Part shown: piece by piece, positions 3,328-8,331 of the stretch
Position numbering within the stretch: position 1 is the stretch's first letter
How the letters are laid out: each line of letters begins with the position of its first letter
Origin: a virus
Reading direction: 5' to 3' (one strand)
Length of the DNA stretch: 31,970 nucleotides
IMG/VR virus record: IMGVR_UViG_3300048017_000130
Location: 1-31,970 of that record
Translations under genes and position numbers: made by a program
Notes under the pieces: model-generated
What the model was told of the DNA's origin: nothing
Database searches by the model: none
The model's input: the letters and a program-made list of their open reading frames with translations, nothing else

Positions 3328-4335
3328 ATGAGCTCATTTAATCAAAATATCAAACGCATTGGCTTTGCTTGCAAGATTCAAAGCGAGCCTGACAAAGCCG
3401 ATCCCACGCTTAACACAAAATCCACCACGATCAGCTATCTTGCTCGTCAAACGGAGGATGCTGCCCGTTCAAAGCTGTGGGGTTTGGTCGACCATAATTT
3501 GAATGCACTCTATCGCCAGCTCAAGTGGGTTGCCAAGCAGCCACGTGAACTGCGTATGTTTCGCATTACCAGTGACTTGTTGCCTGCATATACTCATGAT
3601 GACTATATGCCTTTTTACTTTCAACCTGACGTAGTTGCTAAAATTGAAGCACATCTGAGTATGTGCGGTGACTTTGCTCGTGAGCATGATATTAAATTGT
3701 CGTTTCACCCAGGCCAGTTTTGTGTGCTTGCTAGTGAACAAGAACAAGTAGTTGAAAACTCCATTACCGAGTTCGAGTATCATTGCGACCTTATTCGTTA
3801 CATGGGCTACGGCAAACAGTTTCAAGACTTCAAGTGCAATGTACACATTGGCGGTAAGCAAGGTCCAGCAGGTATTAAACGTGCACTCAAGCGATTGAGT
3901 CCCGAAGCACGTAATTGCTTGACCATCGAGAACGCAGAGTTCACCTGGGGTCTTGATGCAAGTCTAGAACTTGTTGATGACTGTGCCTTAGTACTCGACA
4001 TTCATCATCACTGGATTAATAGTGGTGAATACATTGAGCCTAGTGACCCTAAGTTCAAGCGAGTTATAGATTCATGGCGAGGTGTACGTCCTACAATTCA
4101 TTACTCAGTTTCACGCGAAGATGTAATTGTAGACCACGATCCAAGTACTAAGCCTGATCTTAAACAGCTCAAGTCCATGGGCTTTACCGCAGCTAAACTC
4201 CGTGCGCACAGTGACTACTACTGGAATGACTCAGTTAACCAGTGGGCATTGTCATTTTTACCACACGCAGATATTATGTGCGAGTCTAAACAAAAGAATC
4301 TAGCATCACAGGCATTATATGAGCTCACAAAATAA
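3328..4335 (+). CDS. uvdE: UV damage endonuclease (UvdE/UVDE family)
   Basis: A 335-residue protein of typical length for UVDE, a TIM-barrel endonuclease that nicks 5' of UV photoproducts and starts repair without UvrABC. Visible motifs: IGFACK (11-16), MFRITSDLLP (77-86), SFHPGQF (125-131), NVHIGG (171-176), TIEN (199-202) and LDIHHHW (223-229). The His/Glu/Asp residues in these motifs are the metal ligands of the family. It is tightly packed between an unknown gene and a phosphatase-like gene that overlaps its 3' end by 17 nt. Base composition matches the neighbours. Assignment is firm. Confidence 0.93.
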   Translation: MSSFNQNIKRIGFACKIQSEPDKADPTLNTKSTTISYLARQTEDAARSKLWGLVDHNLNALYRQLKWVAKQPRELRMFRITSDLLPAYTHDDYMPFYFQPDVVAKIEAHLSMCGDFAREHDIKLSFHPGQFCVLASEQEQVVENSITEFEYHCDLIRYMGYGKQFQDFKCNVHIGGKQGPAGIKRALKRLSPEARNCLTIENAEFTWGLDASLELVDDCALVLDIHHHWINSGEYIEPSDPKFKRVIDSWRGVRPTIHYSVSREDVIVDHDPSTKPDLKQLKSMGFTAAKLRAHSDYYWNDSVNQWALSFLPHADIMCESKQKNLASQALYELTK

Positions 4336-4771
4336 ATACTTTGACGCAGGCACTAAAAATGCTGCAATCTTTGAAACCACAGCACCTTACCAGAATCCTT
4401 ATCAGGGTAAGTCCCCTCGTTGGCTTTTTGTATGTAGTGCTGGATTACTTCGCTCACCTACTGGAGCAGCCCTAGCTGTCAAAAAAGGTTTAAATGCACG
4501 TAGTTGTGGTAGCAGACCTGAGTTTGCCTTGATCCCAATCAGTGCAAACTTAATCAACTGGGCACAAAAAATTGTGTTTGTAAACGACGATAACTATCAT
4601 CAAGCTTTAGAACTATTTAAAGACACTGGTAATCTACACTACCAGTTAACAACAAAATCACTAGTACTTGATATCCTAGACATGTACGACTACAACGAGC
4701 CTGAGCTGGTTGTAGAATTTGAAAAGCAAATTGATTGGGTCAGAGCCGTAGGCGGTAAAACCACTTACTAA
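4319..4771 (+). CDS. Predicted protein tyrosine phosphatase-like protein
   Basis: A 150-residue protein. The core motif FVCSAGLLRSPTGA (residues 37-50) is a C-x5-R-S phosphate loop (C39, R45), as in low-molecular-weight tyrosine phosphatases and the COG4551-type phage proteins. A later ILDMYDYNEPEL stretch could supply the general acid Asp. The N-terminal 30 residues are extra. It overlaps the uvdE end and ends just before a promoter. Whether it dephosphorylates host proteins, nucleotides or nothing is open; the catalytic Cys and Arg are intact. Confidence 0.78.
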   Translation: MSSQNKYFDAGTKNAAIFETTAPYQNPYQGKSPRWLFVCSAGLLRSPTGAALAVKKGLNARSCGSRPEFALIPISANLINWAQKIVFVNDDNYHQALELFKDTGNLHYQLTTKSLVLDILDMYDYNEPELVVEFEKQIDWVRAVGGKTTY

Positions 4772-6311: not shown

Positions 6312-6339
6312 AACAACAGGCTATGTGCCTGTCCTAAAC

Positions 6340-6381
6340 TAAGGTTTAGGTTTGCCAAAACCAAGGTAAACCTAAACCTTA
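6340..6381 (+). repeat. Perfect 14-bp inverted repeat before a small gene
   Basis: TAAGGTTTAGGTTT (6340-6353) and AAACCTAAACCTTA (6368-6381) are exact complements around a 14-nt loop. A second hairpin, ACAGGC/GCCTGT, lies just upstream. No T-run follows, so it is not a standard terminator. The TTGGAG ribosome binding site of the next gene starts 6 nt after it, so the hairpin could set mRNA processing or translation. Confidence 0.7.
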
Positions 6382-6398
6382 TTTAATTGGAGAAACAA

Positions 6399-6594: not shown

Positions 6595-6678
6595 GCGAGT
6601 ATGGGGGAATTGGTAGACCCAGAAGACTTAAAATCTTCCGCGTAATGCGTATCGGTTCGACTCCGATTACTCGTACCA
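6595..6678 (+). tRNA. tRNA-Leu (TAA)
   Basis: Acceptor GCGAGTA pairs with TACTCGT (one G-T pair). Anticodon arm GAAGA-CTTAAAA-TCTTC gives anticodon TAA. A long variable arm (CGCGTAATGCGT) marks a class II tRNA, fitting Leu. T arm is ATCGG-TTCGACT-CCGAT; discriminator A and CCA are encoded. Confidence 0.95.
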
Positions 6679-6711
6679 ATTTAAAATGCAAGCACCTAAT
6701 GGCTATAACAT

Positions 6712-6770
6712 AGTGCAGAGTTACAACATTAATAGTATGTAACACAGCAGGTTTGATTCCTGCACACACT
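6712..6770 (+). other. tRNA-like remnant (T arm without full cloverleaf)
   Basis: A perfect T-type arm GCAGG-TTTGATT-CCTGC (6747-6763) follows a 6-bp stem GTTACA/TGTAAC (6720-6725, 6738-6743). The set is enclosed by AGTG (6712-6715) and CACT (6767-6770). The last 3 nt overlap the 5' end of tRNA-Glu. No credible D plus anticodon arm pair can be drawn, so it is not a normal tRNA: either a decayed gene or an armless mimic. Confidence 0.35.
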
Positions 6771-6843
6771 CGGTTCATCTAGAGGCCTAGGATACCGCCC
6801 TTTCACGGCGAGCACACGAGTTCGAATCTCGTACCGAGTACCA
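6768..6843 (+). tRNA. tRNA-Glu (TTC)
   Basis: Acceptor ACTCGGT pairs perfectly with ACCGAGT. Anticodon arm CCGCC-CTTTCAC-GGCGA reads TTC. T arm ACGAG-TTCGAAT-CTCGT. Discriminator A and encoded CCA end at 6843; the ACCA also forms the first bases of the next element's closing stem. Confidence 0.95.
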
Positions 6844-6942
6844 TTTTTAGTAGCGAATTCATTGGCTATTGCATGTAGGTGTTATTCTCCTCCCTGACAC
6901 CGAGGCAACCTGGAGATTGCGACCAGGCGCTACTAAAATGGT
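6840..6942 (+). ncRNA. Candidate structured RNA module A
   Basis: The outer stem pairs 6840-6855 (ACCATTTTTAGTAGCG) with 6928-6942 (CGCTACTAAAATGGT): 15 bp with one bulged T. Inside are two hairpins, GGTGT/ACACC with a loop holding ATTCTCCTCCC, and CCTGG/CCAGG with loop AGATTGCGA, forming a multi-branch junction. No TTCRA loop or anticodon arm is present, so it is not a tRNA. It contains no reading frame of note. The first strand begins at the discriminator base of tRNA-Glu. RNA function is inferred from structure only. Confidence 0.6.
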
Positions 6943-7027
6943 AATATATTTAAGTAACTTGGAGTGGCCAGCGGGACACTCCAGTAATTAAGGGCTCTGT
7001 CGCAGTAACAAGTTACTTAAATATATT
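6943..7027 (+). ncRNA. Candidate structured RNA module B (19-bp closing stem)
   Basis: The arms 6943-6961 and 7009-7027 are perfect 19-nt complements (AATATATTTAAGTAACTTG on the left). They begin on the base after module A ends. The 47-nt interior contains GGAGTG/CACTCC and a small CTG-TCG-CAG hairpin; the first overlaps the inner end of the closing stem by one base. A perfect 19-bp stem in non-coding DNA is far beyond chance. No T-run follows, so it is not a terminator. Confidence 0.62.
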
Positions 7028-7111
7028 TATTTAGGTAGGGAAAGTAAACGGAGAATGGGCAAGCAAGCGTACTCTAAGCGCGAGCCAGATACCTCACCGG
7101 CCTAAATAAAT
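7025..7111 (+). ncRNA. Candidate structured RNA module C
   Basis: ATTTATTTAGG (7025-7035) pairs with CCTAAATAAAT (7101-7111), an 11-bp closing stem. Its first 3 nt are shared with the right arm of module B, so the two stems cannot both form fully. The interior is purine-rich (GGGAAAG, GGAGAATGGG) with only short internal pairings. GGAGAAT (7050-7056) is complementary to a loop of module A. tRNA-His begins 10 nt after the module. Confidence 0.5.
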
Positions 7112-7121
7112 TACAGAATAT

Positions 7122-7196
7122 GCAGCGTTTAGTGTAGTGGGAGCACACGAATCTGTGAAATTCGTAGATATGGATCGAAACCATAACGTCTGCCCA
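7122..7196 (+). tRNA. tRNA-His (GTG)
   Basis: Anticodon arm CGAAT-CTGTGAA-ATTCG reads GTG. G7122 can act as the extra G-1 opposite C73, as expected for His. The acceptor pairs fully only if one T on the 3' strand is bulged (or T pairing is shifted). The T loop is ATCGAAA, with A instead of T at position 54. CCA is encoded at 7194-7196. Confidence 0.85.
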
Positions 7197-7201
7197 AATT
7201 T

Positions 7202-7276
7202 GGTCTTAAAGTGTTTACGGACGCACACAGCACTGTCACTGCTGTAGATGGGGATCGTTACCCCATAAGACCGCCA
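7202..7276 (+). tRNA. tRNA-Asp (GTC)
   Basis: Acceptor GGTCTTA pairs perfectly with TAAGACC; discriminator G and CCA (7274-7276) are encoded. Anticodon arm CAGCA-CTGTCAC-TGCTG reads GTC. T arm TGGGG-ATCGTTA-CCCCA has an unusual loop lacking both T54 and A58. Confidence 0.9.
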
Positions 7277-7392
7277 GAACCTGCCTTAGGTCCGTTAGAT
7301 GCAAACGGTTATGACAAGGGTTGTTCCTGTCGGGCGTCCGTGAGATTTCACTGCCACACGTTAGTTGGCGCTGGATAAAGTAACCAGCTTAT
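7277..7392 (+). other. Structured spacer E between tRNA-Asp and tRNA-Asn
   Basis: This 116-nt gap is much longer than the 2-3 nt gaps between the following tRNAs. It has no reading frame of note but several hairpins: CCGTT-AGATGCA-AACGG, GAC(A)AGG-GTTGTT-CCTGTC, GTGA-GATT-TCAC, and GCTGG-ATAAAGTAA-CCAGC near its end. No long closing stem is seen. It may be a further RNA element or a processed spacer. Confidence 0.4.
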
Positions 7393-7467
7393 TCCAAAGT
7401 AGCACAGCGGTAGTGCAGTTGACTGTTAATCAATTGGTCGTAGGTTCGATCCCTGCCTTTGGAGCCA
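7393..7467 (+). tRNA. tRNA-Asn (GTT)
   Basis: Acceptor TCCAAAG pairs with CTTTGGA; discriminator G and CCA encoded. Anticodon arm around GACTGTTAATC reads GTT. T loop TTCGATC is standard. D arm AGCACAGCGGTAGTGC is well formed. Confidence 0.95.
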
Positions 7468-7469
7468 GT

Positions 7470-7545
7470 AGGGGATTCGCCAAGTTGGTAAGGCTGTGGA
7501 TTTTGATTCCACCATGCGGTAGTTCGAGTCTATCATCCCCTGCCA
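7470..7545 (+). tRNA. tRNA-Gln (TTG)
   Basis: Acceptor AGGGGAT pairs perfectly with ATCCCCT; discriminator G and CCA encoded. Anticodon arm GTGGA-TTTTGAT-TCCAC reads TTG. T arm GGTAG-TTCGAGT-CTATC. Two nt after tRNA-Asn. Confidence 0.95.
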
Positions 7546-7547
7546 TT

Positions 7548-7622
7548 GCCCGATTAGCTCAGAGGTAGAGCACTCGCCTTGTAAGCGATAGGTCGTCAGT
7601 TCGATTCCGACATTGGGCACCA
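7548..7622 (+). tRNA. tRNA-Thr (TGT)
   Basis: Acceptor GCCCGAT pairs with ATTGGGC (one G-T). Anticodon loop CTTGTAA reads TGT. D arm TAGCTCAGAGGTAGAGC and T arm GTCAG-TTCGATT-CCGAC are canonical. ACCA ends at 7622 and is also the first strand of module D. Confidence 0.95.
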
Positions 7623-7725
7623 TATTTTAGCACTATCAAACCTTAACTGCACGGTGATACCTAGTTTGCTAGCGGCGAACGGGTCTGGTAAGAAGCCCTG
7701 GTATCAGATAGTGCTAAAATATGGT
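7619..7725 (+). ncRNA. Candidate structured RNA module D (19-bp closing stem)
   Basis: 7619-7637 (ACCATATTTTAGCACTATC) and 7707-7725 are perfect complements. Inside, TGATACC pairs with GGTATCA (7 bp), which encloses two hairpins, GTTTGC-TAGCG-GCGAAC and GGG...CCC. The arrangement (long outer stem, second stem, branched core) resembles module A, and both begin in the ACCA of a tRNA. It ends 21 bp before the ClpP-like gene, so it could also act as that gene's leader. Confidence 0.62.
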
Positions 7726-7746: not shown

Positions 7747-8331
7747 ATGACAGACGAAACCAAAATCACACTAGGTAAGCAGTATTTTACTAAGAATACA
7801 GGAAGCGTATACGAGTTTTATTTGTCAGGCGAAATTGAAGAAGCCAGTGAGTATTGTGATTGGTTTGATACTATTCGCAATGCTAGATCAACTGACACAG
7901 TTAAAATTTACATTAATAGTTGCGGAGGCGATTTATATACGGCTCTGCAGTTTTTGCGTGTGTTATCAGAAACTGATGCTCATGTAATCACAAGTGTAGA
8001 AGGTGCTTGTATGAGTGCTGCTACAATGATCTTTTTACACGGTGATGAGTTTGAAGTAACACCACACTCATTGTTTATGTTCCACAACTATTCAGCAGGT
8101 GTGTTTGGTAAAGGTGGCGAGATGTTTGACCAATTACAGTTTGAACGTGCTTGGTCAGAAAACTTCTTGCGTGAAGTATATCATGACTTCTTAACACCTG
8201 AAGAAATCAAGTCAATGTTAGACAACAAAGACATTTGGATGACTTCACAACAAGTATTGGCACGAATTGATTTGGTGTTGGCTAAAATGGCTGCGCTACA
8301 AGAACTGGAAACCGAGAAAGAAAATGGCTAA
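7747..8331 (+). CDS. ClpP-like serine protease subunit
   Basis: A 194-residue protein of normal ClpP length. It shows INSCGGD (56-62, oxyanion strand), the nucleophile region EGACMSAATM (85-94, Ser90) and the His region LFMFHNYSAG (109-118, His113); NKDIW near residue 168 could supply the third residue. ClpP forms a barrel-shaped protease fed by a ClpX/ClpA unfoldase; no unfoldase gene is visible, so it may use a host one, or process virion proteins as head-maturation ClpP homologues do. The ATG at 7747 is preferred: an in-frame upstream start would lie inside RNA module D. The ribosome binding site (AGAAAG) is weak. Confidence 0.85.
   Translation: MTDETKITLGKQYFTKNTGSVYEFYLSGEIEEASEYCDWFDTIRNARSTDTVKIYINSCGGDLYTALQFLRVLSETDAHVITSVEGACMSAATMIFLHGDEFEVTPHSLFMFHNYSAGVFGKGGEMFDQLQFERAWSENFLREVYHDFLTPEEIKSMLDNKDIWMTSQQVLARIDLVLAKMAALQELETEKENG

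Follow-up and report, generated by a model that had tools for sequence, protein, structure and literature searches.

Between a tRNA-Thr gene and the gene of a ClpP-like protease, a virus contig carries a long perfect stem enclosing a branched core, and the question is whether this interval is a free RNA or a leader that controls the protease, both of which were suggested in the original prediction. The stretch of DNA analyzed here (the window) has 31,970 bases and comes from a virus contig that is not finished. It contains a T5-like replication block comprised of genes for an NAD ligase, a DnaB-like helicase, a PolA-type polymerase, an SbcCD-like nuclease and an exonuclease, the polymerase being closest to those of Vibrio T5-like phages such as pVp-1 (49%). 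Judged by this gene content, the virus is T5-like, and we refer to it as a T5-like virus of freshwater bacteria. The interval 7619-7725 is probably a structured non-coding RNA that is excised by RNase III from the tRNA transcript of the phage, is stable and acts in trans.

Fold and relatives of the module

The two arms of the closing stem, 19 nt each and separated by 69 nt, are 100% complementary, as originally described, and TGATACC at 7655-7661 is the exact complement of GGTATCA at 7700-7706. Folded as RNA, the interval reaches -45.6 kcal/mol, compared to -24.4 +/- 3.4 kcal/mol for dinucleotide shuffles (z -6.3), and none of the 200 shuffles matches it. The module had been placed directly after tRNA-Thr, but its left arm in fact starts inside the tRNA end: tRNA-Thr contributes its discriminator base and its CCA as the first four bases of the arm (ACCA, 7619-7622), and thus the structure runs straight out of the tRNA. 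The distance from the module to the ATG of the protease gene at 7747 is 21 nt, as had been noted (Table 1).

Table 1. Module 7619-7725 and its neighbours in the window
Feature	Coordinates	Strand	Basis and remarks
tRNA-Thr(UGU)	7548..7622	+	ARAGORN; Rfam RF00005, 65.1 bits; A73-C-C-A end is the start of the left arm
Left arm of the 19-bp closing stem	7619..7637	+	Exact complement of 7707-7725; compensatory changes in relatives
Conserved 5' element (a)CCUUAACUSCACGG(u) with 3-bp closing stem 7640-7642/7653-7655	7640..7655	+	Eight aligned sequences
Inner stem, 5' side	7656..7661	+	Partner 7700-7705; 100% paired; both sides changed in 4 of 6 pairs
CTAG(N4)CTAG hairpin	7661..7672	+	Alignment, invariant
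Most conserved core CGAACGGG...UGGUAAGAAGCCC, with hairpin 7681-7684/7695-7698 and conserved loop	7676..7698	+	Alignment, covariation
Inner stem, 3' side	7700..7705	+	Alignment, covariation
Right arm of the closing stem, last bases TGGT facing ACCA of tRNA-Thr	7707..7725	+	
clpP-like protease gene	7747..8331	+	PHROG 1827, 1.8e-61; neighbour, not required partner

Relatives of the module, located via the clpP neighbour and core patterns, form a family (D) with eight distinct full-length sequences that could be aligned: the window, L087:7503-7609, L091:8432-8537 (minus strand), L033:4825-4930, L025:963-1066, L036:3096-3199, L043:6183-6286 and L028:5623-5727. In this alignment 10 of the 35 pairs are changed on both sides, compared to 3.2 +/- 1.4 after shuffling (none of 500 shuffles is as high), and the number of doubly changed pairs falls to 0-1 if the partners are slid; 90.1% of the cells are paired, the structure having been supplied to the counting tool. 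Compensatory changes in the outer and inner stems, whose absence was to refute the prediction, are present in both. In four sequences the first MAFFT alignment set a gap of one base at the wrong place in the right outer arm, and the pair counts for the outer stem are therefore underestimates.

The interior of the module is also preserved, though not in every detail that had been predicted. The inner stem comprises 7 bp in the window, but only six of them are conserved, the seventh pair being window-specific. As for the two hairpins, GGGU/GCCC shows a compensatory change, with G-C to A-U and U-G to C-G in L028, while CTAG/CTAG does not vary in the alignment, and hence covariation is uninformative for it; a further 3-bp hairpin within the conserved 5' element varies consistently, pair 22-37 being A-U, G-U or G-C across the relatives. 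Moreover, 23 of the 37 unpaired columns are invariant, as counted from the eight-sequence alignment.

A covariance model of the family (R1) finds the eight related sequences, all of which were used to build it, at E-values of 1e-20 to 1e-25, and a divergent ninth member outside the model, L020:4116-4221, at E 1.7e-6 (L022 and L143 are overlapping or near-identical records); the core is recognisable even in L020. The interval is not a degraded spacer, given these homologues. Weak matches of R1 to modules of another family, F (L034, L038-L040; E about 3e-4 to 1e-3), are mainly due to the common outer arms, and those on the minus strand to the symmetry of the stem; both were excluded from D. The family is small, its nine distinct sequences all coming from metagenomic contigs. 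In Rfam, with the gathering cut-off as well as with E-values allowed up to 10, the region yields tRNAs only, with no match for the D core and none to any cis-regulatory family known so far. A blastn search with the module found nothing in 50,697 phage records, leaving cultured phages without a match for the D core, and the core patterns of D and of a further family, B, are absent from the genomes of 84,980 bacteria and archaea. We conclude that 7619-7725 forms a real structure, and the fold together with the homologues supports the free-RNA reading.

Position of the modules relative to clpP and tmRNA genes

The D module lies 3' of tRNA-Thr in the window, of tRNA-Tyr in L091 and of tRNA-Trp in L087. 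In L025, L036 and L043, and judged by position in L028, it follows a tRNA-Ser(UGA)-like gene (the tRNA being read from the upstream sequence), which itself follows clpP, and in L033 it follows the end of a tmRNA, 10 nt before clpP. In D, the discriminator base and the last base of the module form an A-U pair where the tRNA is Thr or Tyr; with Trp, and in three of the four Ser cases, the pair is G-C or G-U.

The short distances to clpP in the window and in L033 agree with a cis-acting leader, that is, a structure controlling translation or stability of the protease message, but five of the other members (L025, L036, L043, L028 and L087) are not directly 5' of clpP. In a survey of 41 clpP genes, the 60 nt upstream include the end of a long-stem module in 14 cases and of none in 27; the 14 modules have at least seven unrelated cores, D in two cases and other cores in twelve, so that no constant position 5' of clpP is observed across the relatives. 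The closest relatives of the window's clpP (88-93% identical protein) are among those lacking an upstream module, and several of them have tRNA-Cys directly before clpP instead. The D module has no obligatory partner gene and is independent of clpP; the leader suggested originally is not supported for 7619-7725 and is very unlikely.

In many relatives (L007, L014-L021, L023-L049 and others) circularly permuted tmRNA genes with ANDxxxALAA-type tags are found just before clpP, and the intervening segments that we examined are closed by long stems too.

One of the D members resides within such a gene. In L020 (and in L022 and L143) a permuted tmRNA (in L020, RF01850 at 4017-4389, plus RF04321) has its acceptor piece (AGGTCCACCA) separated from its coding piece (GGGCCTG) by exactly the D core, which lies between CCA and the tmRNA 5' end. 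The module of the window might then be an intervening segment whose tmRNA halves have been lost, but eight of the nine D members are outside any tmRNA, the window has no tmRNA call, and the non-tmRNA copies are closer to one another than to L020, which makes this origin exceedingly improbable.

Long-stem modules at the ends of tRNAs

Among 650 distinct CCA-ending tRNAs of the fetched loci, the perfect stem starting from CCA is at most 9 bp long in 604 cases and 15-22 bp in 46 cases, with none of 10-14 bp, and only 2 of 3250 shuffled downstream sequences reach 12 bp. Stems starting at the tRNA CCA are a discrete, separate class. In most cases the module's last base pairs with the discriminator base (A with T in 33 of 46). 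Overall, 137 distinct modules with arms of at least 15 bp were found near tRNAs, and they fall into 63 core groups. The slot after tRNA-Thr by itself holds the cores of D, B, F, E and others, mostly between the arms ACCATATTTTAGCAC or variants close to them; in other places these cores are found again with different arms. The outer arms belong to the slot rather than to the core, and unrelated cores are exchanged at the same slots.

The tRNA cluster of the window (6595-7622) contains three more long-stem modules, placed back to back between tRNA-Glu and tRNA-His (6840-6942, 6943-7027 and 7025-7111). The similarity in style to the module at 6840, pointed out in the original prediction, reflects a common class: both are structured RNAs with homologues and a long stem from a tRNA CCA. 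The module at 6840-6942 represents family A, in which GAATTCATTGGCTAT and GCGACCAGG are conserved, and is placed in a core group with 16 modules, and the one at 7025-7111 recurs in L043, L033, L026 and L018. In addition, an inverted repeat at 6337-6384 (20 nt, around a loop of 8 nt) has arms that match those of the 144-nt module L004:445-588 and those of L016:2762-2903, and looks like an empty module that has lost its core.

Several other elements were observed in these clusters. The family B core GCCACTTAATNNATANATGYRGAG is common among virus contigs (66 viral stretches) and is absent from the scanned prokaryote genomes, which makes it a promising candidate for a new family of RNAs. Some cores (L027:4382-4479, L040:5701-5798, L038/L046:4840-4933) have a tRNA-like T-arm (GGTTCGAGTCC or GGTTTGAATCC), and at L016:3840-3937 and L021:627-728 tRNA-His genes are enclosed by long stems, the acceptor stem being extended by at least 10 bp. 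In the window, the interval 7277-7392 between tRNA-Asp and tRNA-Asn has no strong fold (z -0.15) and is 83-95% identical over part or all of its length in L015, L056, L027, L014 and L018, possibly being another conserved RNA or element; 6241-6308 matches the tRNA model of Rfam only weakly, its 22 bits falling short of the cut-off, has no ARAGORN call, and may be an unusual or decayed tRNA.

The multitude of unrelated cores filling the same slots, the seemingly empty module of the window and the many neighbouring tRNAs that have no module at all could indicate that the long stem only recruits RNase III between a tRNA and the next gene, the core being functionless filler. We consider such a processing spacer unlikely, since unpaired core bases are strongly conserved in D, compensatory changes keep the inner stems, and the same core is found in unrelated slots; moreover, families A and B are conserved as strongly as D.

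Perfect inverted repeats and presence or absence between relatives (for instance, module A is found between tRNA-Glu and tRNA-Asp in L009/L010, where L011/L012 have a 5-nt spacer) are also features of MITE-type mobile DNA, whose arms would be terminal inverted repeats around a passive insert. However, families D, B and A have 50 oriented copies near tRNAs, and all 50 read in the direction of the tRNAs. This speaks for a function as RNA, while an element with symmetrical ends should point both ways. The RNA-type covariation in the core and the stems, and the association of the outer arms with the slot and not with the core, also speak against mobile DNA, and this origin is extremely unlikely.

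Proposed processing and comparison with known systems

If the module is an excised RNA, as we favour, it would be transcribed as part of the tRNA transcript, where the long perfect closing stem starting at the CCA of tRNA-Thr would serve as a double-strand processing site. By analogy with the annotated ends of T5 RNAs and with the general biochemistry of RNase III, the host or phage enzyme may cut this stem with a 2-nt stagger, releasing a stable RNA of roughly 85-95 nt. After the cut, a short trailer would remain on tRNA-Thr and be trimmed back to CCA, and the tRNA section would be parted from the clpP message. The branched core is then expected to act in trans on a partner. Cores of many unrelated kinds, this one among them, are exchanged at these slots, the outer arms staying with the slot.

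Fixed slots with cores that turn over are reminiscent of arms-race loci, so that a role against host systems is the most attractive novel reading. It is possible, though we put it forward tentatively, that T5-like phages carry exchangeable RNA cassettes, with fixed slots at tRNA ends, excision arms and fast-changing cores, as an RNA arsenal against host systems. RNA- or tRNA-directed defence would be examples of such systems, and the arsenal would be analogous to protein anti-defence islands.

Several known systems share features with the module. The intervening segment of the permuted (two-piece) tmRNA (RF01850/RF04321) likewise uses a long stem to connect a CCA end with the 5' end of the RNA piece that follows, but the neighbours of the window's module are a complete tRNA-Thr and clpP; the acceptor piece before and the tagged coding piece after are absent in the window, while in L020 both flank the D relative. 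Permuted tmRNAs encoded by phages, aquatic ones especially, have been described (PMC9004378). GOLLD and ROOL, too, are structured RNAs of unknown function, located close to the tRNA islands of phages (PMC12286853). Unlike the module, GOLLD and ROOL are hundreds of nucleotides long and form multimeric cages, and their Rfam models have no match in the window. Species 1 and 2 of the T4 tRNA cluster are stable RNAs of unknown function processed from the phage tRNA transcript, and are likened to the module here by description only. We found no papers on the T5 stable RNAs, the module class or core swaps; most subscription papers were outside the search, and novelty is not thereby proven.

The nearest known system is the annotated stable RNAs of T5. 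The T5 record (AY543070) lists rnaIII, rnaIV, rna2H and rnaI as misc_RNA in the tRNA region, annotated as stable RNAs with unknown functions. Like the module, they belong to a T5-like phage, lie inside the tRNA cluster on the same strand as the tRNAs, are about 100-170 nt long and have a long closing stem, which in RNAIII also runs from a CCA end. In particular, RNAIII has a 20-bp stem (GCCACAATTGAAAATTCGTA/TGCGAGTTTTCAATTGTGGC) and reaches from the CCA of RNAI to the point where tRNA-His, the following tRNA, begins. The annotated ends of RNAIII and RNA2H (taken as annotated, whether sequenced or predicted) lie within the long stem and leave a 3' overhang of exactly 2 nt, and those of RNAIV one of 1 nt. 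A 2-nt 3' overhang is the signature of RNase III, and the ends of RNAIII and RNA2H are as its cutting would leave them. The arms differ, starting with GCCACAATTGA in T5 and with ACCATATTTTAGC in the window, D is a family of predicted RNAs, and R1 has no match in the T5 tRNA region (L093), with no homology of D to any T5 RNA.

The RNAIII slot has the same anatomy and the same core exchange as the relatives of the window. In cultured T5-like phages its outer arms GCCACAATTGA/TCAATTGTGGC are constant and enclose three unrelated cores, namely the T5 core, a 135-nt version (PMBT27, cott162, IrmaTschudi; 55 records) and a 77-nt version (SB9, S114, MET_P1_137_112; 65 records). Cultured T5-like coliphages thus differ by clean core swaps at this slot, and the T5 stable RNAs are placed in a much larger class with a stem starting at CCA, slot-specific arms and interchangeable cores.
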